Assembly (NCBI GenBank): GCA_031317595.1
Contig: JANCMB010000001.1
Coordinates: 1,544,971 to 1,608,970 of the forward strand
From: Glutamicibacter sp. PS
Lineage (GTDB): Bacteria > Actinomycetota > Actinomycetes > Actinomycetales > Micrococcaceae
Length of the DNA: 64,000 nucleotides
Reading direction: 5' to 3'
Positions within the stretch are counted from its first letter, which is position 1. Every line of letters begins with the position of its first letter. Below, one piece after another: positions 13,420 through 35,083 of the stretch. The notes under the pieces are model-generated. The model made no database searches. It had not been told where the DNA came from and saw only the letters and a program-made list of their open reading frames with translations. A program made the translations under genes and the position numbers.

Positions 13420-14966
<1,547 letters not shown>

Positions 14967-15048
14967 ATGAAGCTCTTCCCCCACGTCGCACGTAGTCGTA
15001 AGGTAAAGGGCAACAGTAGAAAGCGGATGCTTCATTGGAGGTTCACCC

Positions 15049-15606
15049 ATGGAAATCCAGTTATACCGTGGCGATATCACCACGCTGCACGTCGACGCAA
15101 TTGTCAACGCAGCCAACCCCTCACTGCTTGGTGGAGGTGGTGTAGATGGCGCCATTCACGCCGCAGCGGGACCCGAGCTCTTGGCCGCCTGTCGCGAACT
15201 ACGAGCCGGGAACTATCCCGACGGAATCTCCTCCGGCATTGCCGTGGCCACCAAGGCCGGGAATCTGCATGCGAAGTGGGTTGTGCACACCGCGGCACCC
15301 AACCTGAGCCTGCCCGGTGCGAAGCCGAACCCGAAGATTCTGGCCGATTGCTTCAGCAATTCGCTCTATGTTGCCGCGCGCCATGACGCACATTCGATCG
15401 CGTTCCCCGCCATCGGCGCGGGCGCCTTCGGATGGGATCCGCAGCAGGTGGCCGAAATCGCCACCGAAGCCATTGGGGGCTGGGTGCAGACTAACCTGCA
15501 CATCTCGCCGATTCACAAAATCATCATGGTTTCGCACACCGATCAGGTGCAGCAGGCCTTTGAGCAGGCATTCGGGCTCCCCTCGACGCAGGAGGTTGCC
15601 GCATAG
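15049..15606 (+). CDS. Macrodomain protein, probable O-acetyl-ADP-ribose deacetylase
   Basis: 185 residues. The N-terminal macrodomain signature is AIVNAANPSLLGGGGVDGAI at about residues 17-36, and the phosphate-binding loop is FPAIGAGAFGWDPQQVAEIA. Such proteins bind or hydrolyse ADP-ribose derivatives. An ATTGGAGG ribosome site precedes the ATG. It is the only plus-strand gene inside the arg region and its promoter region is shared with argH, so co-control by ArgR is possible. The biological link to arginine is unknown. Confidence 0.88.
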   Translation: MEIQLYRGDITTLHVDAIVNAANPSLLGGGGVDGAIHAAAGPELLAACRELRAGNYPDGISSGIAVATKAGNLHAKWVVHTAAPNLSLPGAKPNPKILADCFSNSLYVAARHDAHSIAFPAIGAGAFGWDPQQVAEIATEAIGGWVQTNLHISPIHKIIMVSHTDQVQQAFEQAFGLPSTQEVAA

Positions 15607-15623
15607 GAGGCGATAGACGACAG

Positions 15624-15655
15624 CGGCGGGCCGATGCTCAAGCATCGGCCCGCCG
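15624..15655. terminator. Bidirectional hairpin between the macrodomain gene and argR
   Basis: A perfect 15-bp GC-rich stem, cggcgggccgatgct (15624-15638) and its complement (15641-15655), with a 2-base loop, lies between two convergent genes. There is little T run on either side, so the terminator call is less certain. Confidence 0.6.
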
Positions 15656-15735
15656 TACTGTTACGACTCCCCCGAACTCACGAGGCGGCGAACGGACGAT
15701 ACCCGTTCGGTGCCCCGGTGCCGCCGGAACTCTGG

Positions 15736-16239
15736 TTAGCTACTTTCGGCCAACCGCAGGAAACGGGAGGCCACCTCGGCGCCACCGGCCGGGTCGCGGG
15801 TGATCACCATGACGGTGTCGTCGCCGGCGATACAGCCCAGCACCGAGGGCAACTGAGAGTGGTCGATGGACAACGCCAGCAGGTTGGCCGCCCCGGGCGG
15901 AGTCCGCAACACCACAATATTGGCCGAGGCTTCGGCGGTGACCAGATGATCTTGGCAGATCTTCGCCAGTCGCGCGTCGAGCACCTCTTGGGTCAGCACG
16001 GTTTGCGGGCTGCGGTCCCCACCCTCGGAGCGAATCGCGTAGATCAGTTGCCCGGTGGTATCACGGACCCGCACCGCCCCGATCTCCACCAGATCCCGGG
16101 AGAGCGTAGCCTGGGTGACCTCGAGGCCATCATCCTTGAGGAGCGCGAGCAACTCCGCCTGAGACCGCACCGAATGCGCGGCAAGGAAATTACGGATGCG
16201 CGCCTGACGGGCGGTTTTGGTGCTGGGCTGGCCGACCAT
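15736..16239 (-). CDS. argR: Arginine repressor
   Basis: 167 residues. The N-terminal winged helix has AARQARIRNFLAAHSVRSQ and TQATLSRDLVEIGAVR. The C-terminal hexamerisation and arginine-binding domain has GAANLLALSIDHSQL and GDDTVMVITRD. It binds ARG boxes when arginine is present. It is the last gene of argCJBDFR, directly abutting argF (stop and start adjacent). Its likely targets in the window are the sites before argC and argH. Confidence 0.95.
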   Translation of the reverse strand: MVGQPSTKTARQARIRNFLAAHSVRSQAELLALLKDDGLEVTQATLSRDLVEIGAVRVRDTTGQLIYAIRSEGGDRSPQTVLTQEVLDARLAKICQDHLVTAEASANIVVLRTPPGAANLLALSIDHSQLPSVLGCIAGDDTVMVITRDPAGGAEVASRFLRLAESS

Positions 16240-17214
16240 TTAGTCCCCGCTTTCTCGGGGAGCACCGGCCGGACCGGCGCTCAATCCCGAGGCCGCCATC
16301 AGCCAGGCCATCAGGGCCTTCTGCGCGTGCACACGGTTTTCCGCCTCGTCGAACACGACCGACTGTGGCCCATCGATCACCTCGGCGGTGATCTCATAGT
16401 CTCGGTAGGCCGGCAGGCAATGCAATACGATGGCGTCGGACTTGGCGGCCGCCATGGCCTGCGCGTTGATCTGGTAGTCGGTGAAGAGCTTGAGCCGCTC
16501 GGCTTTTTCCTCCTCCTGTCCCATCGACACCCAGGTGTCGGTGGCCACCACGTCGGCGTCGGCCAGCGCCTCGGCGGGGTTGGAGGTGATGGTGATCTTC
16601 GCGCCGGTCTCATTGGCGCGCAGCTGGGCGGCGGCGATGATGCGTTGCTCGGGGTGGTAGCCCTCCGGTCCGGCGATGGCCACGTGCATTCCTGCGTTGA
16701 CCGCGGCCAGCAGGTAGGAGTTGGCCATATTGTTCGCCGCATCTCCCAGGTAGGCCAGCTTCAGCCCCTGCAGCTCGCCCTTGTGTTCACGGATGGTGAG
16801 CAGGTCGGCCAGTAGCTGGCAGGGATGATAGTCATCGGAGAGGGCATTGATCACCGGCACCTTTGAATGCTGTGCCATTTCTTCCAAGCCCGACTGGGCG
16901 TAGGTGCGCCACACGATGGTGGAAACCATGCGCTCGAGCACGCGGGCGGAGTCGGCGATGGACTCCTTGTGTCCGAGCTGGGATTCGGCGGAGTTCACGA
17001 TCAGCGGGGTGCCGCCCAGTTCGGCGATGCCGGCGTGGAAGGATACCCGGGTGCGGGTTGAGGTTTTATCGAAGAACACCGCAACCGTTTGCGGCCCCGC
17101 GTAGGGACGGTAGCCGAAGCGGTCGGCCTTCATGGCAAGGGCCAGGTCTAGCACCTCGCGCTGTTCGCCGGGACTCAGGTCGAGGTCGGTCAAAAAGTGA
17201 CGGGTGGTGGCCAT
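16240..17214 (-). CDS. argF: Ornithine carbamoyltransferase
   Basis: 324 residues; converts ornithine and carbamoyl phosphate to citrulline. The carbamoyl-phosphate motif is FFDKTSTRTRVSF and the ornithine-loop motif is VLHCLPAYR; a DTWVSMGQEEE block follows the family. It abuts argD upstream and argR downstream with no gap, so translation is probably coupled. Confidence 0.96.
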   Translation of the reverse strand: MATTRHFLTDLDLSPGEQREVLDLALAMKADRFGYRPYAGPQTVAVFFDKTSTRTRVSFHAGIAELGGTPLIVNSAESQLGHKESIADSARVLERMVSTIVWRTYAQSGLEEMAQHSKVPVINALSDDYHPCQLLADLLTIREHKGELQGLKLAYLGDAANNMANSYLLAAVNAGMHVAIAGPEGYHPEQRIIAAAQLRANETGAKITITSNPAEALADADVVATDTWVSMGQEEEKAERLKLFTDYQINAQAMAAAKSDAIVLHCLPAYRDYEITAEVIDGPQSVVFDEAENRVHAQKALMAWLMAASGLSAGPAGAPRESGD

Positions 17215-18471
17215 TTAATGCTCCTTGCGGTGTGCCATCGCCTGGCCGATGAGGCCGGGTAGGGCGTCGATAAATGTACTCAGTTGCTCGCGGGTGATGA
17301 TCAACGGCGGTGCCAAACGCAGTGTGCGGGGGCCGGTGGTATTGATGATGAAGCCGGCCTCGAGCGCGGCCTTGACCACCTCGGAGGCGTAGTCGCCGAC
17401 CAGGTCGAAGCCGATGAGCAGACCGCGGCCGCGCACCTCGGTGATCCCCGATAGTTCGGCCAACTGCTCGCGCAGCCAGCTACCGGTGGTCGCGGCGTGC
17501 TCGAGTAAGTTCTCCTTTTCCAGCACGTGCAAGGTGGCCAGGCCGGCGGCCGTGGCCACCGGGTTCCCACCGAAGGTGGTGCCGTGATCCCCCGGCTTCA
17601 GCAGGTCCGAAACCTCGTGGCCCAGGGTGATCAATGCACCAATGGGGAAGCCTGCGCCCAGTCCCTTGGCCAAGGTGATGGCGTCGGGTAGCACCGGAGC
17701 GCTAGCCAGGTAGCTTCCGGTGCGCCCCATGCCCGTTTGCACCTCGTCGAAAATCAGTAGTGCTCCGGCTTCGTGGGTGATGGCACGGGCCGCACGCAGG
17801 TACTCCGTGCTCAGCTCATGTACCCCGGCCTCGCCCTGAATCGGTTCGATAAAGACCGCCTGGGTGTGCTCATCGACGGCCTCACGTAGGGCCTCGACAT
17901 CTCCGGCCGGCACCCACTGCACCTCGCCGGGCAACGGTTCGAAGGGCTCGCGGTAGGCCTTCTTCCAGGTCAGCGACAGGGCACCGAGGGACCGGCCGTG
18001 GAAGGCGTTCTCTAGGGCGATCACCTTGGTGCGCGGGCGTTCGGCACTACCGGTGTTGCGCCGGGCGAGCTTCAGCGCCGCCTCATTGGCCTCGGTGCCG
18101 GAGTTGGTGAAGAACACCTTTGAACCGCCCGGGGCGCTTGCGATCTTCAGCAGCGACTCGGCCAGAGCGATCTGCCCGGGCGAGGTGAAGAAGTTCGACA
18201 CATGCCCCAGGGTGGCTAGCTGCGAGGAGATCACGCTGGTATGCAGCGGGTGGCCGTGTCCCAGGGTGTTGACGGCGATACCGCCGAGCAGATCCAGGTA
18301 CTGCTTGCCATCCGCGTCCCACACGTGGGCGCCGGAACCGCGCACGAGCACCCGCTGCGGGGTACCGAACACTCCCAGCAGGCTACCGGTGTAGCGTTCG
18401 GTCAGCGCGGTGGACGGCAGTGCCCCGAGCGCGGCGAGCGCATCGGAGGGCTGTGGTGCTGGCTGGTTCAT
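17215..18471 (-). CDS. argD: Acetylornithine aminotransferase
   Basis: 418 residues, class III PLP aminotransferase. The PLP-lysine context is [16 protein letters not shown], preceded by [32 protein letters not shown] is the phosphate-binding loop. It makes N-acetylornithine from the semialdehyde; many homologues also serve lysine synthesis. The start overlaps the argB stop by four bases. Confidence 0.95.
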
Positions 18472-19391
18472 TGGTTCTCCCCCTCGGGCCGCACTTGGGT
18501 GCCCACACCGGCGGTGGTGAACACCTCGAGCAGCATCGAATGTGGTTGGCGTCCGTCGACGATGTGGGCGCGCGGCACCCCGGCATCCACGGCCTTGAGG
18601 CAGGCGCCCATCTTCGGGATCATGCCCGATTCCAGCGACGGTAGCAGCGCGCGCAGTTCCTCGTTGCTCAGCGAAGTGATCAGCGAGGACTTATCCGGCC
18701 ACGCGGCGTAGAGACCCTCGACGTCGGTAAGGATGACGAGTTTGGAGGCGCCCAGGGCCACGGCCAGTTCGGCCGCGGCGGTGTCGGCGTTGACGTTCAG
18801 CACCGCGCCGGTGGGTTCGCCGCGTTCGTCGAACTCAGGGGCGACGGTGGAGATCACCGGGATCATTCCGGCCGCCACGAGCGAATCGACCTGATCGGTG
18901 CGTACCCGCGTGACCTCGCCGACCAGCCCCAGATCCACCGGCAATCCGTCGACGATGGTTCCGGTGCGGACGGCCTGCAACGTGGCCCCGTCCTCCCCGG
19001 AGAGGCCCACCGCGTAGGGACCGTGCGAGTTGATCAGCCCGATCAGGTCGCGCTGCACCTGACCGGTGAGCACCATGCGCACCACATCCATGGCCTCGGG
19101 GGTGGTTACCCGCAGGCCGCCGCGGAACTCGGATTCGATGCCCAGGGTCTGCAGCATCTTATTGATCTGCGGTCCGCCGCCGTGCACGACGACCGGCTTA
19201 ATTCCGGCGTGGCGCAGGAAGACGATGTCTTCGGCGAAGGCGCGACGCAGCTCGTCGTTCACCATGGCATTGCCGCCGTATTTGATGACCATGGTGGTTC
19301 CGGTGAAGCGTTGGATCCAGGGCAGCGCCTCGATTAGTGCCTCGGCCTTGCGCTGGGCCAATGCGGTATCGGTGGGGTTTCTCTCGCTCAT
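18468..19391 (-). CDS. argB: Acetylglutamate kinase
   Basis: 307 residues from the ATG at 19391. An in-frame codon at 19445 would add 18 residues and overlap argJ by 26 bases without a ribosome site; the inner start leaves a 28-base gap and has AGGCAGAG before it. The family motifs are [28 protein letters not shown] and [12 protein letters not shown]. It phosphorylates N-acetylglutamate and is the usual feedback-controlled step; the N-terminal helix linked to arginine inhibition in hexameric enzymes is present ([12 protein letters not shown]). Confidence 0.94.
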
Positions 19392-19419
19392 CGTCTCTGC
19401 CTGTTCTGCTCTGGCCGAC

Positions 19420-21647
<2,228 letters not shown>

Positions 21648-23013: not shown

Positions 23014-26000
23014 ATGGATCCGTTCATAATGATCAACGATCAAACTCCTGCGCCGGATCAAGAAATCTACGCCCCCCAGTTTCCCTCCGGCGCCCTGGCC
23101 CCGGCCGCCCGCACCCTGGTAGACATCCTGCAGGCAACCGCCGAGGCCCACCCCGACGCGCCCGCCATCGATGATGGCGAGCGTACCGAAAGCTACGCCG
23201 AGCTCATCGAAAAGGTCAAGGCCAAGGCCCTCCGCCTGCACGAGCATGGGCTTGGCGCCGGAGACCGCATCGGCGTGCGCGTTGAATCGGGCACGCGCCA
23301 CCTCTACGAGTGGATCCTGGCCATCATCTGGGTCGGCGCAGCCTACGTCCCGGTGGATGCCGACGATCCCGACGAGCGAGCCAAGACGGTTTTCACCGAA
23401 GCCGGAGTGGCCGGCATCGTCAAGGGCATCGACACCATCGTGGCGGATGCCGCACGGCCCAGGCCATTCGCTTCCCCTCGCCCGCCGGACCTGGAAGATG
23501 ACGCCTGGATCATCTTCACCTCCGGCTCCACCGGCAAGCCCAAGGGCGTCGCGGTATCCCATCGTTCGGCCGCGGCCTTCGTTGACGCCGAAGCGCAGAT
23601 GTTTCTGGCCGGCGACCCGCTGAACACCTCGGACCGGGTCTTGGCCGGGCTGTCGGTCGCCTTCGATGCCTCCTGCGAAGAAATGTGGATCGCCTGGCGC
23701 AACGGCGCCTGCTTGGTGCCGGCCCCGCGAGCTCTGGTGCGCAGCGGCATGGACCTGGGCCCTTGGCTGATTTCCCGCTCGATCACCGCGGTCTCCACCG
23801 TCCCCACCTTGGCGGCCTTGTGGCCAGCCCAGGCCCTGGACTCGGTGCGCCTGCTCATTTTCGGTGGCGAAGCCTGCCCGCCAGAACTAGCCGGCCGGCT
23901 GGCCACCGAAGGTCGCGAGGTCTGGAATACCTATGGCCCCACCGAAGCGACCGTGGTGGCCTGCGGCGCCACCATGGACGGCAGCCTCCCGGTGCGCATC
24001 GGGCTGCCCCTGGCCGGATGGGATCTGGCCGTGGTCGGCCCCGATGGCATTCCGGTGGCCGAGGGTGAATCTGGCGAGCTGATCATCGGCGGAGTTGGAC
24101 TGGCCCGCTACCTAGATCCGGAGAAGGACGCCGAAAAGTACGCGCCGATGCCCACCTTGGGCTGGGAGCGCGCCTACCGCTCCGGCGATATGGTGGTCAA
24201 TGACAGCAAAGGCCTGATCTTCATCGGACGTGTCGACGACCAGGTAAAGATCGGCGGCCGACGGATCGAACTGGGCGAAATCGATGCCGCGCTCAACTCC
24301 CTGGCCGGAGTCTCTGCAGGCGCGGTGGCCGTGCGCGAAACCGCCACCGGAAACAAGATCCTCGTCGGCTACCTGCAGGCGCCCGAAGGCTACGACCTGT
24401 CCGCCGCCCGTACCGCCTTGCTGGAGGACCTGCCGGCGCCCATGGTGCCGATCCTGGCCGTCATGGACAACCTACCGATGAAAACCAGTGGCAAGGTCGA
24501 CCGCAATGCACTGCCCTGGCCGCTGCCGGGCGCCGAGCAGAACGACTCCTCCGGCGAGCTGCCGCCACTGAATGAGGTGGGCGAATTCATCGCCGAAGCA
24601 TGGCAGGGAGCTCTCGGCGCACCAGTGTCCGGATTCGACGCCGACTTCTTCGCCGCCGGCGGCGGTTCCCTGTCGGCAGCCCAGCTCGTCTCCGCCTTGC
24701 GCGTGCGCTATCCGAACCTGACGGTGGCCGAGCTCTATGACTACCCGCGTTTCGGGGCCCTGGTTGAATTCCTCGACGGGCATCAAGTCGCCAGCGAAGC
24801 GGCTGAACCGCGCATCGTGGCGCGCACCAGGCGCACCACCCAATTGGCGCAGACCCTAGCAGCCTTCCCGCTATTCATCCTCTCGGGCGTGCGCTGGTTC
24901 ACCTATTTGTTGATTGGGCACGTGGCCTTGGTCGCCATGGGTGTTTTCGAGGACTCGCTGCCCACCCCGTGGTACGTGATCGCCGGGCTATGGCTAGTAT
25001 TCGTCACCCCGATCGGACGCATGGTCCTGTCGATTCTGGCTAATAAGTTGCTGCTGCGCGGACTGGAGCCCGGAAGCTACCCGCGCTCCGGCTCGGTTCA
25101 TCTGCGCCTGTGGCTGGCTCAGCATGTGGCCGATGTGGTGGACCCGATTTCGCTCTCCAGCGCGCCGCTACTGCCCTGGTATGCCCGCATGCTCGGCGCG
25201 ACGATTGACCGCACCGCCACCCTGCACACCCTGCCGCCGGTGACCGGAATGCTTACCGTGGGCCCGGGCGCCACCATCGAACCCGAGGTGGATGTCAGCG
25301 GCTACTGGATTGACGGCGACAAGCTACACGTGGGAGCCATCCATGTCGGCGCCCGCGCCTCGATCGGCGCGCGCAGCACCCTGCTCCCCGGGGCGGCGAT
25401 CGGCGATGACACGATCGTCGAGGCCGGCTCGGCCGTCTACGGAACCGCCCGCGAAAACTCGCGCTACGCCGGCTCCCCCGCGACCCGCCAGTCCAAGGCC
25501 AAGCCCAAGTGGCCCGAGGCGGAACCCGCCTACCGCAAGCTGCCGCGCGTACTGGCCGGCCTCGCCTCGATCCTGCTCAACCTGTGGCAGTGGCTCCCCG
25601 TGGTCCTCGCCTTCCTCTGCACCGCCCCGATCCTGCGGCCGTCCCAGTCGCTGGCGGACATCGGCTGGCGTTTCATCCCCGCCGTGATCGTGGCGGCGCT
25701 GGTCTGGTTCCTGTCGAGCATGATCTTGACCATCGTCGTGGTGCGCTTGCTGTCAATCGGCCTGGTCGAGGGATGGCATCCGGTCACCTCGCGGGTGGGC
25801 TGGCAGGCCTGGGCGACCGAGCGGGTTCTGGATACCGCCCGCGATCAGCTCTTCCCGCTCTACGCTTCACTGTTCACTCCCATCTGGCTTCGCCTCTTGG
25901 GGGCCAAGGTCGGACGCGATGTGGAAATCTCCACGGTCCTGCTGATCCCGAAGATGACCACCATCTCCTCCGGTGCCTTCCTGGCCGACGACACCATGGT

Positions 26001-26964
26001 GGCCTCCTATGAACTCGGCGGCGGATGGATGCATATCGCCCCGGTGCGCGTGGGCAAGAAAGCCTTCCTGGGCAACTCGGGGATCCTGCATGCAGGGCGC
26101 CGCGTACCCAAGCGTTCGCTGATTGCGGTGCTCTCGGCCACGCCGAAGAAAATGAAGGCCGGGACTTCGTGGCTCGGTTCCCCGCCGAACAAGTTGCGCC
26201 GCACCACGGTGGAAGCCGAGTCGGAGCGCACCTACCGTCCGGCCCTGAAATTGAAGATCATGCGCTCCTTCTGGGAGCTGACCCGCAGCCTTGCGGTCTT
26301 CACCACCGTCGCCATCGCCGGTGGCGTGCTCTGGGCATTGGCCGCCCTGACCACCTACCTCGGCGTCTGGGCCGGCATCTTGCTCTCCGGCGCGGTGCTG
26401 GTGCTTGCTGGCGCGTTGGCTGCCGTAGCCGCGGTCGCGGCCAAGTGGCTGGTGGTCGGCGCGATCCGTCCCGGCGAGCATGCGCTGTGGAGTTCCTTCA
26501 TCTGGCGCACCGAGATGGTCGACTCCTTCACCGAGCTGGTCTGCGCCCAGTGGTTTGCCCGCCTCGCCTCCGGAACCCCGGCCTTGATCTGGTTCCTGCG
26601 CGCCCAGGGTGCCACCATCGGTCATGGCGTGTGGTGCGAAAGCTACTGGCTGCCGGAAGCCGATCTGGTCACCCTGGAGGATCACTCCACGGTCAACCGC
26701 GGTTCGGTCCTGCAAACCCACCTGTTCCACGACCGCATCATGTCCATCGACGCGGTCACCCTGGGAGCAGGGGCGACGCTTGGCCCGCACAGCGTGATCC
26801 TGCCAGCGGCGCAGATCTCCGACGGCACCACCACCGGCCCGGCCAGCCTGGTCCTTCGCGGCGAGGTTCTTCCTGCCAATACCTACTGGCGCGGCAATCC
26901 AGCAGTACGCTGGAACATCAATACGGAAACACGAGTTTCGCAACCCGTCACACAGGAAGCCTGA
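23014..26964 (+). CDS. Pls/PosA-type membrane NRPS, probable isopeptide poly-lysine synthetase
   Basis: 1316 residues; epsilon-poly-L-lysine synthetase of Streptomyces albulus is, from memory, about 1319. Adenylation domain 1-500: TSGSTGKPKG (169-178), FDASCEEMW (217-225), NTYGPTEATV (305-314), YRSGD (388-392), GKVDR with K494. Thiolation domain 520-590 with S552 in GGGSLSA. Then six hydrophobic segments (about 613-642, 652-675, 845-870, 886-912, 1090-1115, 1116-1148) flank three soluble domains rich in hexapeptide-like GxxxxI/V repeats, as in Pls. Aligning by eye to GrsA gives the code D-A-E-S-I-G-T-V-V-K, close to lysine codes. The start is 23014 (or 23029). No thioesterase or ordinary condensation domain is present. 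The product is inferred. Confidence 0.85.
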   Translation: MDPFIMINDQTPAPDQEIYAPQFPSGALAPAARTLVDILQATAEAHPDAPAIDDGERTESYAELIEKVKAKALRLHEHGLGAGDRIGVRVESGTRHLYEWILAIIWVGAAYVPVDADDPDERAKTVFTEAGVAGIVKGIDTIVADAARPRPFASPRPPDLEDDAWIIFTSGSTGKPKGVAVSHRSAAAFVDAEAQMFLAGDPLNTSDRVLAGLSVAFDASCEEMWIAWRNGACLVPAPRALVRSGMDLGPWLISRSITAVSTVPTLAALWPAQALDSVRLLIFGGEACPPELAGRLATEGREVWNTYGPTEATVVACGATMDGSLPVRIGLPLAGWDLAVVGPDGIPVAEGESGELIIGGVGLARYLDPEKDAEKYAPMPTLGWERAYRSGDMVVNDSKGLIFIGRVDDQVKIGGRRIELGEIDAALNSLAGVSAGAVAVRETATGNKILVGYLQAPEGYDLSAARTALLEDLPAPMVPILAVMDNLPMKTSGKVDRNALPWPLPGAEQNDSSGELPPLNEVGEFIAEAWQGALGAPVSGFDADFFAAGGGSLSAAQLVSALRVRYPNLTVAELYDYPRFGALVEFLDGHQVASEAAEPRIVARTRRTTQLAQTLAAFPLFILSGVRWFTYLLIGHVALVAMGVFEDSLPTPWYVIAGLWLVFVTPIGRMVLSILANKLLLRGLEPGSYPRSGSVHLRLWLAQHVADVVDPISLSSAPLLPWYARMLGATIDRTATLHTLPPVTGMLTVGPGATIEPEVDVSGYWIDGDKLHVGAIHVGARASIGARSTLLPGAAIGDDTIVEAGSAVYGTARENSRYAGSPATRQSKAKPKWPEAEPAYRKLPRVLAGLASILLNLWQWLPVVLAFLCTAPILRPSQSLADIGWRFIPAVIVAALVWFLSSMILTIVVVRLLSIGLVEGWHPVTSRVGWQAWATERVLDTARDQLFPLYASLFTPIWLRLLGAKVGRDVEISTVLLIPKMTTISSGAFLADDTMVASYELGGGWMHIAPVRVGKKAFLGNSGILHAGRRVPKRSLIAVLSATPKKMKAGTSWLGSPPNKLRRTTVEAESERTYRPALKLKIMRSFWELTRSLAVFTTVAIAGGVLWALAALTTYLGVWAGILLSGAVLVLAGALAAVAAVAAKWLVVGAIRPGEHALWSSFIWRTEMVDSFTELVCAQWFARLASGTPALIWFLRAQGATIGHGVWCESYWLPEADLVTLEDHSTVNRGSVLQTHLFHDRIMSIDAVTLGAGATLGPHSVILPAAQISDGTTTGPASLVLRGEVLPANTYWRGNPAVRWNINTETRVSQPVTQEA

Positions 26965-26976
26965 GGCGACGCACCG

Positions 26977-28278
26977 ATGCACCATCGGATTCTGGATGAG
27001 TACACCAAGCACTACGGCTCCCCGACCTACACCGTAGAACATTACGACGTGAACCTGGTGGTGAAGCTCGCAAGCAATCACCTCGACGGCCGAGCCATGC
27101 TGCGCATTCGCGCGCTCGAAGATCTCAATGAGATCCCGTTGAACCTCAACGGGTTGAGGATCATCAAGGCCACCTGCCAAGGGCGCAAGGTCTCCGTGAG
27201 CAAAAAGCACCACCGTATGGTCGTCTCGACCCCGAACCGGGTCAAAGCCGGGGATCATATCGAATTGAATCTGCGTTACGGCGGAAACCCCGATGTCGAT
27301 AACGGCCAGTGGGGCGAAGTGGGCTGGGAAGAACTCACCGACGGTGTCCTCGTTTCGGGACAGCCCGTGGGCGCATCCACCTGGTTCCCCTGCAATGACC
27401 ACCCGAGCCACAAGTCCTCCTACCGTTTCGAGGTGTCCACCGACGCGGGCTATCGCGCGGTGGCCAATGGCGACTTGATCTCGCACCGCCGTTCGGCCAG
27501 CCGCGATACGTGGCTGTACGAACAGCGCGAGCCCATGGCCACCTATCTGGCGACCTTGCAGATTGGGCGCTACGTCGAAATCGCTTTTGACCACGGGCAC
27601 CATCTGCTGGCGTATTCGGTTCCAGGCAATGACCTGCCGGTGCGCAGAGCCTTTGCCCAACAGGGGCAGATGGCCGAGATCTTCGAGCGCAAATTCGGCC
27701 CCTACCCCTTCGAGAATTACAAAATCGTGGTGGTGGACGACGAGCTCGAGATTCCCTTGGAGGCCCAAGGCATGAGCATTTTCGGACGCAATCACCTCTC
27801 GCTGGAGTGGGAAGCCCAACGCCTCATCGCCCACGAGTTCGCGCACCAATGGTTCGGCAATTCGCTAACTCCCTCGCAGTGGAAGGACATCTGGCTAAAC
27901 GAGGGCTTCGCCTGCTTCAGCGAGTGGGTTTATTCCGAATACGCCGGAGTCATGCCGCTGGAGCAGCGCGCGCGCGATGCCTGGGAGAAACTCAAGTCGC
28001 TGCCCCACGACCTGCAGATCGGGGACCCCGGCCCGAAGGACATGTTCGATGATCGCGTTTACAAGCGCGGGGCACTGACCCTGTACGCATTGCTCACCGC
28101 GCTAGGCGAGAAAGCCTTCTACGAGATGCTGCGCGATTGGACGGCGACCTACCAGCACGACAGCGTCGATACCAAGAAGTTCGCCAAGCATCTAAAGAAG
28201 CATGCTTCTGGCATCGACGTGGATCAGATTCTGCAGTCCTGGCTCACCAATCTTGAACTGCCGGACTTTCCCGCCTGA
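26977..28278 (+). CDS. M1-family zinc aminopeptidase, short form
   Basis: 433 residues. The zinc motif HEFAHQW has H286 and H290, and the third ligand E309 lies in NEGFA. The substrate-binding GAMEN motif of M1 enzymes is replaced by EAQGMSIFG (262-270), and the large C-terminal domain of classic aminopeptidase N is missing. No signal peptide is seen, so it looks cytosolic. It starts 12 bases after the NRPS stop, so they are co-transcribed. Degradation enzymes for poly-lysine (Pld) are zinc aminopeptidases, so trimming or degrading the polymer is a reasonable role. Confidence 0.85.
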   Translation: MHHRILDEYTKHYGSPTYTVEHYDVNLVVKLASNHLDGRAMLRIRALEDLNEIPLNLNGLRIIKATCQGRKVSVSKKHHRMVVSTPNRVKAGDHIELNLRYGGNPDVDNGQWGEVGWEELTDGVLVSGQPVGASTWFPCNDHPSHKSSYRFEVSTDAGYRAVANGDLISHRRSASRDTWLYEQREPMATYLATLQIGRYVEIAFDHGHHLLAYSVPGNDLPVRRAFAQQGQMAEIFERKFGPYPFENYKIVVVDDELEIPLEAQGMSIFGRNHLSLEWEAQRLIAHEFAHQWFGNSLTPSQWKDIWLNEGFACFSEWVYSEYAGVMPLEQRARDAWEKLKSLPHDLQIGDPGPKDMFDDRVYKRGALTLYALLTALGEKAFYEMLRDWTATYQHDSVDTKKFAKHLKKHASGIDVDQILQSWLTNLELPDFPA

Positions 28279-28352: not shown

Positions 28353-29249
28353 ATGAGTGTTGAAATGCCCCTGCTCGATGACGCCTTCCATGGTTACTCG
28401 GTGCTCGATGATGATGACGATGACCCATTGTTGTTGCGCGCCGATGGCAGTGTCGTTGACACGTGGCGCGAAGACTATCCCTATGACCTGAAGCTCGACC
28501 GCGAAACCTACGAGATTGAAAAGCGTGCGCTGCAGATCGAGCTTCTGAAACTCCAGAAGTGGACGAAGGCCAATGGCCGACGCATCATGATCGTTTTCGA
28601 AGGCCGTGATGCCGCGGGCAAGGGCGGAACGATCAAGCGCTTCACCGAGCACCTGAACCCTCGCGGTGCCCGCGTCGTCGCCTTGGAAAAGCCCAGCGAA
28701 CGAGAATCCACCCAGTGGTACTACCAGCGCTACGTGCAGCATTTCCCCGCAGCCGGTGAAATCGTGCTCTTCGACCGTTCCTGGTACAACCGTGCCGGCG
28801 TGGAACGGGTGATGGGCTTTTGCACTCCCGAGCAGGTGGACCATTTCCTCGACCAGACTCCGCTCTTTGAAAAGCTCGTGGTCGACGAGGGTATCGATTT
28901 GGTGAAGTTTTGGTTCTCGGTCTCGCCGGGCGAGCAGCTCACCCGCTTCACCATTCGGCGGATCGACCCGGTGCGACAGTGGAAGCTCTCCCCCATGGAT
29001 CTTGAGTCCTTGGATAAATGGGATAGGTACACGGAAGCCAAAAAGGAAATGTTCCTGAAGACCGACACCGACCACGCACCATGGACGGTGGTGAAGTCCA
29101 ACGACAAGAAGCGAGCCCGGCTCCAGGCGATGCGCCACGTGCTGAACCTATTTGACTACAAGGGCAAGGATCATGTGCTGATCGGTTCCCCTGATCCGCA
29201 GATCGTGGGTCGCGCCGCGAACGTCATCACCCATGGCGAAGAGTTCTAG
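28353..29249 (+). CDS. ppk2: Polyphosphate kinase 2
   Basis: 298 residues. Walker A is FEGRDAAGKGG (83-92), Walker B FDRSWYNRAGVE from 140, and the lid region SPMDLESLDKWDRY, all PPK2 class I-like. An acidic N-terminal stretch contains six consecutive Asp residues. PPK2 uses polyphosphate to phosphorylate nucleoside mono- or diphosphates, giving ATP or GTP. It follows the NRPS-M1 pair but has its own PHO-box promoter, so it responds to phosphate starvation. It could supply ATP for the adenylation domain; that is inference. Confidence 0.9.
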   Translation: MSVEMPLLDDAFHGYSVLDDDDDDPLLLRADGSVVDTWREDYPYDLKLDRETYEIEKRALQIELLKLQKWTKANGRRIMIVFEGRDAAGKGGTIKRFTEHLNPRGARVVALEKPSERESTQWYYQRYVQHFPAAGEIVLFDRSWYNRAGVERVMGFCTPEQVDHFLDQTPLFEKLVVDEGIDLVKFWFSVSPGEQLTRFTIRRIDPVRQWKLSPMDLESLDKWDRYTEAKKEMFLKTDTDHAPWTVVKSNDKKRARLQAMRHVLNLFDYKGKDHVLIGSPDPQIVGRAANVITHGEEF

Positions 29250-29262
29250 CAGGTTTCGGGTT

Positions 29263-29934
29263 TCACCGCACGGTGATCGCGGTGGCCAGCAGGCCGTGTC
29301 CAACTGGGGATTCGCTCATCCATTGCCCGCGGAGCGCTGACAGGTCAACCCCGCGGTGCGCGGAGTTGGCCTGCAGGATTCGGGCCGTGAAGGTTCCTGG
29401 TTCTTGGCCAACCGTGATCTCGCATTCAAGAAAATCTAACCAGCGCTGGGCTAGTGGATACCACGTCTTGAAGACGCATTCCTTGGCGCTGAACATCAGC
29501 TTGTCCCAAGCGATCCCGGGATCGTAGGCACGGAGACGAGCGGCTAAGCGCTGTTCTTCCGGCAGCAGGATCAGGTCGACCGCATCTGCCGGGAGCGCCT
29601 GATGCGGTTCGGCGTCGATGCCGATACTGCTGAATTCACTGGCGCAGGCCACCGCGGCCGCACGCAGTCCTGCAGTATGCGTCATGCTACCCACGATATT
29701 CGGAGGCCACACCGGCGCACGGTGGTCATCGGGGACGAGTATGTGATTGCCGTGTCCGAATTCGGCGAGCGCTTGGCGAGCGCAAATACGCACGGTGCGG
29801 AATTCCCGTTGACGGGCTTCGACCGCGTTGGCCACGTAGCGTTCTTCTTGCCAGAATCTGGGCCCGTCATCTAGCTCGGTGCGTGCCTCGACCACGCGTA
29901 CGCCCTCTGGCAATAGCTTGGAAAAAATTGGCAT
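29263..29934 (-). CDS. 4'-phosphopantetheinyl transferase (Sfp/EntD type)
   Basis: 223 residues. The magnesium and CoA motif GIDAE is at 105-109, and the catalytic FSAKECVFKTWYPL block at 148-161. The N-terminal WPPNIVGSMTHTAG is the EntD-like signature. It transfers phosphopantetheine from CoA to a carrier-protein serine. It is convergent with ppk2, and the only carrier protein seen in the window is S552 of the NRPS, the natural target. EntD types usually serve siderophore NRPSs elsewhere, so it may serve others too. Confidence 0.88.
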   Translation of the reverse strand: MPIFSKLLPEGVRVVEARTELDDGPRFWQEERYVANAVEARQREFRTVRICARQALAEFGHGNHILVPDDHRAPVWPPNIVGSMTHTAGLRAAAVACASEFSSIGIDAEPHQALPADAVDLILLPEEQRLAARLRAYDPGIAWDKLMFSAKECVFKTWYPLAQRWLDFLECEITVGQEPGTFTARILQANSAHRGVDLSALRGQWMSESPVGHGLLATAITVR

Positions 29935-29944
29935 GGTTTCCCGC

Positions 29945-31456
29945 TTAGAACCTCGACGATCCGCCGGCGCCCGAAAAGCTGCCGCCGGAGTAGCCGCTGG
30001 ATACCGACCCGGAAGAGCTAGAGGACTGACGAGAATGATCTACCGCGATGGTTGCCCCTGTGTAGCCAGCGTTGTAGCTGCCCACGTTCCAGTACAGGAT
30101 TCCGAGATTCAAGAGATCCAGTACGGTTCCGCCGCGTTGGCCTTGGCCGACAGTGGAATAACGGGTGAGTTCCATTTCCTTGCGCATCTGTTCCTTCTAC
30201 TCTTCATTCTGCGCATAGGCTTCGATGTGAGCCTTGCCAAAGTCATCCAAACACTCCGTCAGCCCGTGTCGGAGCTTTGAGAGTTGATCCACGGCCGCGT
30301 CAACATCGATCCGTTCAGCCTTCAATTGGGTGCCGATCGATTCGAGCGATTGCGTTGTGCTCTCCCGGTACGAGGCGACCGCCGCAGCACAGCCCTGCAA
30401 TTCCGGCCCAACGTCATCGATCAGCGTGGAGATTTGGGCACGATCGTCTGCCAGCGGTTTCGTCTGCGCGCGCCAAGCTTCTTCCCACGAGGCCGAACGC
30501 GCGCAAAGCGCGGCGGCAGCGATGATGGCGTCATCGGTCAGATCAAGTTTTCGCGCGTCAGTTTTGAAATTCTTGGCGGCGTCCACACCTCGGCCAGAGA
30601 AACAGTAATTCATCCCCGCTGCGTCCAACTCGGCTTGCGAGTCAAAGGATTCACGACACGTTGACATGAAGTCGGCAAAGCGGCGTTCAAGCTCCGCGGC
30701 GTGGATCGATCCGGTGGGCAGGATCTTGGCGGCGATTTCCGTCTCTTCCAAGTCTATGGTGACGTTAGTGAGATGCTCGGTCCCGCTCTGTAATTCCTGG
30801 GCGAAATTCCTGCGTCGCGACGAACGCATCGCAACCGAGAATACCCGGACAATACCAGTGCCGCCGCCTCCTGTCGCGACAGTCCACCAAAGTCCGGGGC
30901 TTTCGTACCACGGCCGATTTGCGGTCTTCGAAGCCTTGTCGACCACTGCGATCACACCATCGGCCCACCGCGATAAGTTGAAGTCGCCTTACCCGGCTTC
31001 ATGGATACCCTCCATTTGGCTAGTGGTGACTTTGCCATCCACGCCAAAGTACGTGCCAATTTGACCGTCGCCATGACCCTTTTCCGACAGCGTGATGATC
31101 AGCAGCCCGTCGGCCCAGTAGTCGCCATAGTCCTCTGCCCTGGCCGGGTTCCACTCCGGATAAGTCTTCCGGGAAAATTCGAGCGCTTTGGTATTAACGT
31201 CATGGGAGTAGTTGCCTCCGCGCGTGTACCCCGCGACGTTAGTCGGTACGTTGAGATCTATTTTTTCAAAGGCATCCAGGAGCCGGCCGCGATTAATCAC
31301 GTGGGCGGTATCGTCAAGACTGACCGTCCCCAGATTCGCACCGGCATGAATCTGCACTCCGGAGTCCGCGAAGGCCGGAGCTACCACGTTCAGCAGGCCG
31401 AAGGATAGGACGGTCAGCCCGCTGACGAGCCGCCTGGCCAGATTGATTCGTGCCAT
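29945..31456 (-). pseudogene. DUF5129/TPM-like secreted protein with two in-frame stops
   Basis: One open frame of about 504 codons interrupted by TAA at 30989-30991 and TAG at 30197-30199, with no frameshift. Joined, it parallels the intact protein at 33469-34989 from signal peptide to tail. Shared stretches are EDYGDYWADG, GDGQIGTYFG, RPWY-SP-LW, ELERRFADF, RAQT, KAERIDVD and the end GGSSRF. The first stop replaces a Tyr position of the paralogue (IHEAGY), and the second a residue just before EQMR. The N-terminus is a signal peptide ending AFADS. Read as a recently disabled duplicate; stop readthrough or a basecalling problem is less likely. Confidence 0.8.
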
Positions 31457-33468: not shown

Positions 33469-34989
33469 CTAGAACCTCGACGATCCGCCCGATCCCGAGA
33501 AGCTGCCTCCCCCGGAGTAACCATGGGAAATTCCCCCGCTGGAGGAACTGGCCGACTGCCGTGAGCTCTCCACCGCACTGACTCCGGAACTGTATCCAAC
33601 GTTGTAAGCCTGAACCCGCCAGAACAGATCAGCCGGTGAAATGACGTCAAGAATGGATCCGCCGCCACGCATTCGTGTCCGGTTATTTGCGCTGCGTGCC
33701 TCACGCAGCTTGTCACGCATTTGCTCACGCTCGGATTCCGTTTCGGCATAGCTTTCGATCTGCACCTTGGCGTATTCGTCGAGCCGCGCGGTCAATCGCT
33801 CACGCAACCCCCGCAACCGGTCCAACGCAGTGTCCACGTCGATACGCTCGGCTTTCAGTTCGGTGCCGGTCCGTTCAACGACCGCACGGGCTTCTGCACC
33901 AAAGGATTGCAGGGCCGCAAACGCGCTTTGCAGTTGTTCTTCCCCCTCGGAGGGCAGGTTGCCGAGTTCGTCAAGATCCTCCAGGATCGGCGCCGTTTGG
34001 GCACGCCACGCGTCTTCCCAAGTGGACGAGCGGGTATACAGTGCCGCGGCGGCGGTGATCGCATCATCCGTGGCATCCAATTCTTGAGCTGTCTCGCGGA
34101 ACTTCTTGGCGCGCTGCCCCGCGGCGCTAGAAGATCGAGCCTTCTTATCCATGGCTAGCAGCTCTTGTTGCTCGTCGAAACTCGTACGGTACTTCTCGGT
34201 GAAGTCGGCGAAACGACGCTCCAGATCGGCGGCGTGCCGCGAGCCGGTAGGCAACGTGCGGGCCGATAATTCGGTGACTTCCAGATCCATCGTGACGCGT
34301 GTGAGGTGCTCACTACCGGCCGACAGTTCGGCGGCGAAACTCTGCCGTCGGTGTGCCCGTACCAGGAGTACCGCCCCGGCGGTCACGCCCGCACCACCGC
34401 CAAGTACACCTGCGGTGATCCACAGCGCTGGGGATTTGTACCAAGGGCGGTTCATCACCGCCGCCCCCTTGTCGGCGACCGCGATCACCCCGTCGGTCCA
34501 CCTCGCCTGATTGAAATCCTCGTAGCCCGCCTCGTGAATCGACCGCATTTGGCCATCGCCAACCTTACGGTCCTCACCAAAGTACGTGCCAATCTGCCCG
34601 TCACCGGGACCTTCGACCGAGAGGGTAATAATGAAATACCCGTCGGCCCAGTAATCGCCGTAGTCCTCCGGGTCGGCCGAAATCCACTCCGGGTGCGCAC
34701 TCTTGGCGTAGGTCAGCGTTTCGGTGTTGATGTCGTCGGAATACTCTCCTTCACGGCTATAGATGGCGACCTTGGTCGGTTCATAGAAGCTGATTTCGGC
34801 GAGCGCGTCGCGCAGCTTCTCGTCGTTGAGTACTAGGGCCTCATCATCGATGGAGACCGAAACGAGGTTGTTGGAGGCAGCCTGCGCCGAGGTGTCCTGA
34901 GCCGCGGCAGAAGGTAGCGCCGCCACGGAGCTGAACACCATGAGCGTAGCGGCCGAGCCAAGCCGAGCGATCTTTGACAGACGGTTCAT
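33469..34989 (-). CDS. DUF5129/TPM-like secreted membrane-anchored protein
   Basis: 506 residues from the ATG at 34989, which has AAGGGG upstream; an in-frame codon at 35016 is less likely. Signal peptide 1-31 (SVAALPSAAAQD). A TPM-like domain follows with DYGDYWADGYFIITLS and GDGQIGTYFGEDR. A membrane segment comes next (ALWITAGVLGGGAGVTAG), then a long coiled-coil-like stretch with KAERIDVDTALDRL. The C-terminus is Ser/Gly-rich and ends GGSSRF. Likely a cell-surface protein; no activity known. It is the intact partner of the broken copy at 29945-31456. Confidence 0.75.
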   Translation of the reverse strand: MNRLSKIARLGSAATLMVFSSVAALPSAAAQDTSAQAASNNLVSVSIDDEALVLNDEKLRDALAEISFYEPTKVAIYSREGEYSDDINTETLTYAKSAHPEWISADPEDYGDYWADGYFIITLSVEGPGDGQIGTYFGEDRKVGDGQMRSIHEAGYEDFNQARWTDGVIAVADKGAAVMNRPWYKSPALWITAGVLGGGAGVTAGAVLLVRAHRRQSFAAELSAGSEHLTRVTMDLEVTELSARTLPTGSRHAADLERRFADFTEKYRTSFDEQQELLAMDKKARSSSAAGQRAKKFRETAQELDATDDAITAAAALYTRSSTWEDAWRAQTAPILEDLDELGNLPSEGEEQLQSAFAALQSFGAEARAVVERTGTELKAERIDVDTALDRLRGLRERLTARLDEYAKVQIESYAETESEREQMRDKLREARSANNRTRMRGGGSILDVISPADLFWRVQAYNVGYSSGVSAVESSRQSASSSSGGISHGYSGGGSFSGSGGSSRF

Positions 34990-35083
34990 CGGGGCCCCTT
35001 CTGCGTGCCGAAGCACGTCGAATAAATCCGAACGTTAGCTTAGTTGCCATCCTAGCCGCTGGCAGCCGGGCTATGCTGAGTCA

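Follow-up and report, generated by a model that had tools for sequence, protein, structure and literature searches.

The 64,000-nucleotide stretch of Glutamicibacter sp. PS analyzed here (contig JANCMB010000001.1, positions 1,544,971 to 1,608,970; the window) very probably encodes, at 23014-26964 on the forward strand, a membrane-bound epsilon-poly-L-lysine synthetase (Pls), with epsilon-poly-L-lysine (epsilon-PL) as its predicted product. The open reading frame (ORF) starts with ATG and specifies 1316 residues. Pfam places an AMP-binding domain at residues 40-365 (E 1.6e-57), followed by a PP-binding domain (E 1.6e-9), and also detects a hexapeptide repeat. This adenylation-thiolation (A-T) module is fused to a terminal domain that matches TIGR02353, the NCBIfam 'Pls/PosA family', over residues 612-1297, scoring 635 bits where the cut-off is 423. 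Neither a condensation (C) nor a thioesterase (TE) domain is among the Pfam matches at E 0.001. An ordinary nonribosomal peptide synthetase is rejected both on this ground and by the genome, which holds only two PP-binding domains at that threshold, that of Pls and another in a 107-aa frame. The best PDB match, which is not a chance one, is 7wew_A, the epsilon-PL synthase of S. albulus (E 1.7e-181); the second-best entry, linear gramicidin synthase, reaches 3e-113. The initial annotation of the window had described an A-T pair at these coordinates in a 1316-residue protein of Pls/PosA-type layout with no thioesterase, a description with which the ORF, the Pfam matches and the TIGR02353 score all agree.

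The substrate pocket points to lysine. Read with GrsA as the ruler (its fragment verified against 1amu_A), the pocket code is DAESIGTVVK, identical in 7WEW at all ten positions, and the two A domains share 296 of 490 aligned residues (60%). The initial annotation had read exactly this code, and the alignment with S. albulus Pls that it proposed as a check gives the same result. For a wider comparison, 124 sequences (the window's and those of 123 loci with a Pls-like match) were considered; the 100 longer than 1200 aa were aligned and the 24 shorter ones excluded. DAESIGTVVK is present in 99 of these 100, a set that includes the window, its own-genome copy and some genomes twice. Among the 98 other full-length loci it is present in 97, with L024 showing a gap at the last position.

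Lysine had originally been proposed from a resemblance to the bacitracin lysine code. The code is indeed lysine-like, but this resemblance is risky evidence on its own because PosA, the delta-poly-L-ornithine synthetase of Acinetobacter baumannii, has a code nearest to that of bacitracin lysine and yet prefers L-ornithine (PMC10522769; this and the other papers cited are drawn on in part). S. albulus Pls is the closer reference, its code being identical. Identity with Pls at ten positions, together with 60% identity across the A domain, is better evidence for lysine than bacitracin likeness.

The same PosA precedent lends some support to an alternative in which the lysine-like code misleads and another diamino acid is polymerized, either ornithine, as by PosA, or diaminobutyrate (Dab) or diaminopropionate (Dap). 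The position of pls beside arginine biosynthesis genes (argC, argB) also fits this alternative, as the arginine pathway passes via ornithine. Position 2 of the code, however, tunes chain length, and here lysine enzymes carry Ala, PosA carries Met and Dap/Dab enzymes carry Phe (PMC10522769); in the window it is Ala. The contrasting codes are DMEHNGTVSK in A. baumannii, DMEHNGTVTK in Sphingomonas and DFECLSAVTK in L125, a synthetase of Streptomyces sp. NBC_01527 assigned to the Dab type from its neighbors, a diaminobutyrate transaminase (dat) and an aspartate kinase (ask). The window pls has no such transaminase and kinase genes beside it. Although the A. baumannii PosA-type protein and L125 belong to the same family as the window Pls, and PosA shares its overall layout, A-domain identity is 36% to each, against 60% to Pls. 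An M1 peptidase gene adjoins the window pls, whereas none was found in the 2.5-kb flanks of A. baumannii PosA.

An unrooted maximum-likelihood tree of A domains was built from 27 hand-picked full-length sequences and 7WEW, with one Dab-like and two Met-code proteins as the contrast. One long branch (support 100) separates these three proteins from every Lys-code protein, and the window Pls falls with Pls on the Lys-code side. Taken together, the tree and the adjoining M1 peptidase gene favor epsilon-poly-lysine as the probable product over poly-ornithine or poly-Dab. A polymer of another diamino acid was set aside on code position 2, the tree, the identities and the gene context, and we regard it as highly unlikely. 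Of the "uncharacterised poly(lysine) or related" polymer first predicted, the lysine type stands on the code, the tree and the M1 neighbor, while the polymer itself is one already known.

The C-terminal half displays the repeated architecture expected of this predicted epsilon-PL synthetase. Residues 600-1316 were modeled with AlphaFold2 from 39 aligned sequences (L047 left out). The model has a mean predicted local distance difference test score (pLDDT) of 82 and comprises three units, each a pair of long helices followed by a beta-helix domain. Six helices, with membrane insertion predicted, separate three acyltransferase-like domains in this model. Foldseek returns weak matches to hexapeptide acyltransferases and gamma-carbonic anhydrases (best E 2e-4). 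The model fits the arrangement noted initially, in which six hydrophobic segments surround three soluble domains. A hydropathy scan does not show six clean peaks; nine overlapping windows form about five clusters.

Elsewhere in the class, two loci, L096 (1450-3981, reverse strand) and L113 (793-3627, forward strand), encode proteins of 844 and 945 aa with a T domain and hexapeptide repeats. Profile searches of both proteins, from two genomes, found no A domain, and in the L096 protein the terminal domain of the Pls/PosA family scores 884 bits. These proteins may represent a stand-alone terminal module.

In the mechanism we propose, a PptT-like enzyme encoded downstream would place phosphopantetheine on the T domain of Pls, and lysine would be adenylated by the A domain and then loaded onto this prosthetic group. 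The C1-C3 domains would join lysines repeatedly via the epsilon-amino group, with no need for a thioesterase, and the polymer would be delivered outside the cell. The M1 peptidase, whose gene is co-directional with pls, may trim or degrade the polymer and protect the producer. More speculatively, a linked PPK2 polyphosphate kinase might recharge nucleotides from polyphosphate, offsetting the ATP-to-AMP cost of each residue.

In addition to its pocket and A domain, S. albulus Pls shares with the window enzyme the A-T and membrane/acyltransferase-like layout and the pls-pldII gene pair (PMC8117764). The window differs in that its host belongs to the Micrococcaceae, with PPK2 after the peptidase gene and an Sfp-type phosphopantetheinyl transferase (PPTase) beyond it on the other strand. 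Pls homologues of C. variabile and other coryneforms have the same architecture and pls-peptidase operon as the window, and their lysine pocket matches that of confirmed Pls exactly or very closely; expression tests were limited to the C. variabile gene (PMC8117764). As that paper lists Glutamicibacter among the genera with Pls homologues, the window Pls adds to an already known enzyme type. Clusters of the antiSMASH 'NAPAA' class are common to Micrococcaceae isolates (PMC11078813), and TIGR02353 scores above its cut-off in 105 of 394 genomes in our class sample.

The nearest named relatives are Arthrobacter sp. NIO-1057 (91%), Arthrobacter sp. S41 (89%) and Glutamicibacter sp. JC586 (87%), in keeping with a Glutamicibacter origin of the window. 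Full-length orthologues (80-100% identity, the window's own included) are present in 14 of 18 congeneric genomes; pls is absent from three others, and G007 retains about 88 codons. The gene is under purifying selection, with ratios of nonsynonymous to synonymous substitution (dN/dS) of 0.05-0.19 against 11 congeneric orthologues, four of them at a synonymous distance above 1.

Several observations weigh against an epsilon-PL synthetase at this locus. Pocket codes can mislead in the Pls/PosA family, as they do for PosA (PMC10522769), and in a full-length tree one Lys-code Streptomyces protein (L128) joins the other-code proteins, with a support of only 34. PDB matches of the C-terminal domains have query-normalized TM scores of at most 0.15, and because they are so weak the condensation mechanism is proposed by family analogy. 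C. variabile Pls makes epsilon-PL when expressed in S. coelicolor, yet none was detectable in culture of C. variabile itself (PMC8117764), so the window gene may likewise be silent. It could then be intact in sequence but silent or degenerating, with no polymer made, and the lack of a full-length gene in 4 of the 18 congeneric genomes, one with the 88-codon remnant, would fit such a course. Its 1316-codon frame is open, however, the T-domain motif and pocket are intact, and the low dN/dS argues for a gene kept in function; we consider silence or decay very improbable and retain an epsilon-PL synthetase as the reading of the gene.

Two congeneric genomes (G002, G010) carry a second Pls type (L168/L169), about 47-48% identical to the window's and with the code DAESIGTVIK. 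The in-frame stops noted in these copies are their terminal stops, and the copies are intact. In the surrounding 7-8 kb, nothing homologous to the M1 peptidase of the window was detected.

Table 1. Coordinates in the window of pls, its predicted domains and the downstream genes.
Feature	Coordinates	Strand	Basis
pls, predicted epsilon-poly-L-lysine synthetase, 1316 aa	23014..26964	+	TIGR02353, 7WEW match, code, A-domain tree
Adenylation domain, code DAESIGTVVK, residues 10-507 aligned to 7WEW	23041..24534	+	Pfam, 7WEW, GrsA alignment
Thiolation domain, residues 525-587, phosphopantetheine Ser552 in GGGS	24586..24774	+	Pfam, motif
First pair of predicted membrane helices, residues 607-680	24832..25053	+	AlphaFold2 model, hydropathy
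C1-like left-handed beta-helix domain, ~residues 727-829	25192..25500	+	Pfam, AlphaFold2 model, Foldseek
Second helix pair, residues 842-914	25537..25755	+	Hydropathy, AlphaFold2 model
C2-like beta-helix domain, ~residues 963-1059	25900..26190	+	AlphaFold2 model
Third helix pair, residues 1092-1148	26287..26457	+	Hydropathy, AlphaFold2 model
C3-like beta-helix domain, ~residues 1200-1301	26611..26916	+	AlphaFold2 model
M1 zinc metallopeptidase, 433 aa, HEFAH...E; PldII-like, putative epsilon-PL degrading/self-protection	26977..28278	+	Pfam, motif; role from PMC8117764, PMC9223678
PPK2 polyphosphate kinase of 298 aa, proposed partner in nucleotide regeneration	28353..29249	+	NCBIfam, Pfam, family comparison
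Sfp-type phosphopantetheinyl transferase (PptT-like), proposed Pls T-domain activator	29263..29934	-	NCBIfam, Pfam

The M1 peptidase gene follows pls after a gap of 12 bp, and its product carries the motif HExxH-18-E. This arrangement is conserved: in 79 of the 80 named loci an M1 match starts 16-216 nt past the Pls match, and in the remaining one (L080) the contig ends there. Plasmid records of Streptomyces and Kitasatospora also place an M1 gene 3' of pls, and these pls-linked genes are homologous to the window's. Known producers carry a pls-pldII pair, in which PldII degrades epsilon-PL and provides self-protection (PMC8117764, PMC9223678).

Tentatively, we propose that in Micrococcaceae a dedicated PPK2 could draw on polyphosphate to restore the nucleotides that Pls uses up, and that pls, pldII and ppk2, in many cases together with an Sfp-type PPTase gene, could form a self-contained production unit; we hold this to be somewhat less likely than not. 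Shared ancestry of a stable gene block is a simpler alternative. Within the genus, the 14 of 18 genomes that have pls also have M1 and PPK2, and the other four lack all three. This co-occurrence is weak evidence alone because the loss in G007 is a single event: at L170 (3234-4023), QOR is followed by about 88 pls codons and then a truncated PPTase, with pldII and ppk2 gone, and one deletion evidently took pls from about codon 89, pldII, ppk2 and the PPTase end. The comparison was therefore widened to the family.

Among 197 Micrococcaceae genomes, a Pls match (E <= 1e-200) is present in 111 and a PPK2 match (E <= 1e-100) in 136. Among the matches listed, the 32 PPK2s that most resemble the window's (72-100% identity, counting the window's own) come from 32 genomes in 9 genera, and each is encoded 1.4-5.8 kb downstream of pls in the same orientation. 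In contrast, no pls out of the 121 listed is found within 15 kb of any of the 118 other PPK2s among the matches listed, and pls is present in 56 of the 94 genomes that hold these PPK2s. A PPK2 tree gathers 31 of 34 linked sequences in a group free of unlinked ones, though with a support of only 64 and three linked sequences outside. Of the 111 pls genomes, 79 have no close, window-like PPK2, so that Pls does not need it everywhere; in the named loci, PPK2 is present in only 13 of 80.

A further genome, G542 (L226, C1:639000-648500), has one stop in pls and a frame shift near codon 1174, and its M1 and PPK2 genes are frame-shifted. This joint decay was dropped as support for a functional link because the unrelated QOR neighbor has two in-frame stops; the changes look like general sequence error or general decay. 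We found no description of a natural pls-PPK2 link in a literature judged mainly by titles and abstract openings, and the text covered of PMC8117764 does not mention a polyphosphate kinase neighbor. The proposed native link resembles the PPK2-based ATP regeneration engineered into S. albulus, which raises epsilon-PL (PMC10012588).

If the PPK2 link is functional, producers would have solved the ATP cost of the polymer themselves, polyphosphate would be tied to cationic antimicrobial synthesis, and a ready-made gene set would be available for production strains. Epsilon-PL is a known antimicrobial polymer and a widely used natural food preservative, and the Glutamicibacter host is a soil or cheese bacterium. 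A non-filamentous producer of epsilon-PL would be useful, and the window pls provides a concrete candidate in Glutamicibacter. The less settled part of the picture is the linked PPK2, more than the synthetase itself.

The PptT-like transferase of the window likely activates Pls, given that the genome contains only two PF01648 transferases (this one and a 126-aa frame) and only the two PP-binding frames described above. Within the genus the PptT-pls link is imperfect. PF17837 is present in 11 of 18 congeneric genomes, namely 10 of the 14 pls-bearing ones and G007, where the copy is cut, and was not found in the pls genomes G002, G010, G012 and G017, where other transferase types were not searched for. 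The window's PPTase is present in 4 of the 80 named loci. In 12 of 20 PPK2-linked loci (L188, L190, L191 and L197-L205), the interval between the M1 and PPK2 genes holds, on the opposite strand, a candidate for a divergent Sfp-type transferase, as identified by our own motif or by Pfam; in the window the PptT-like gene instead follows PPK2. The motif was found in 10 of 18 loci scanned, and PF01648 in all 9 candidates scanned, 6 of them above the cut-off. By eye, L189 resembles these loci, and L186 carries a PptT-like gene.

Upstream of pls, an arginine biosynthesis-like block occupies 13420-21638 on the reverse strand, with argC and argB assigned by NCBIfam and other arg genes by eye. On the far side of the PPTase gene, two reverse-strand ORFs (30197-30955 and 30989-31456) correspond to consecutive portions of DUF5129; a 515-aa ORF at 33469-35016 on the same strand contains the entire domain. 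The region 30197-31456 is apparently a split duplicate copy of the DUF5129 gene.

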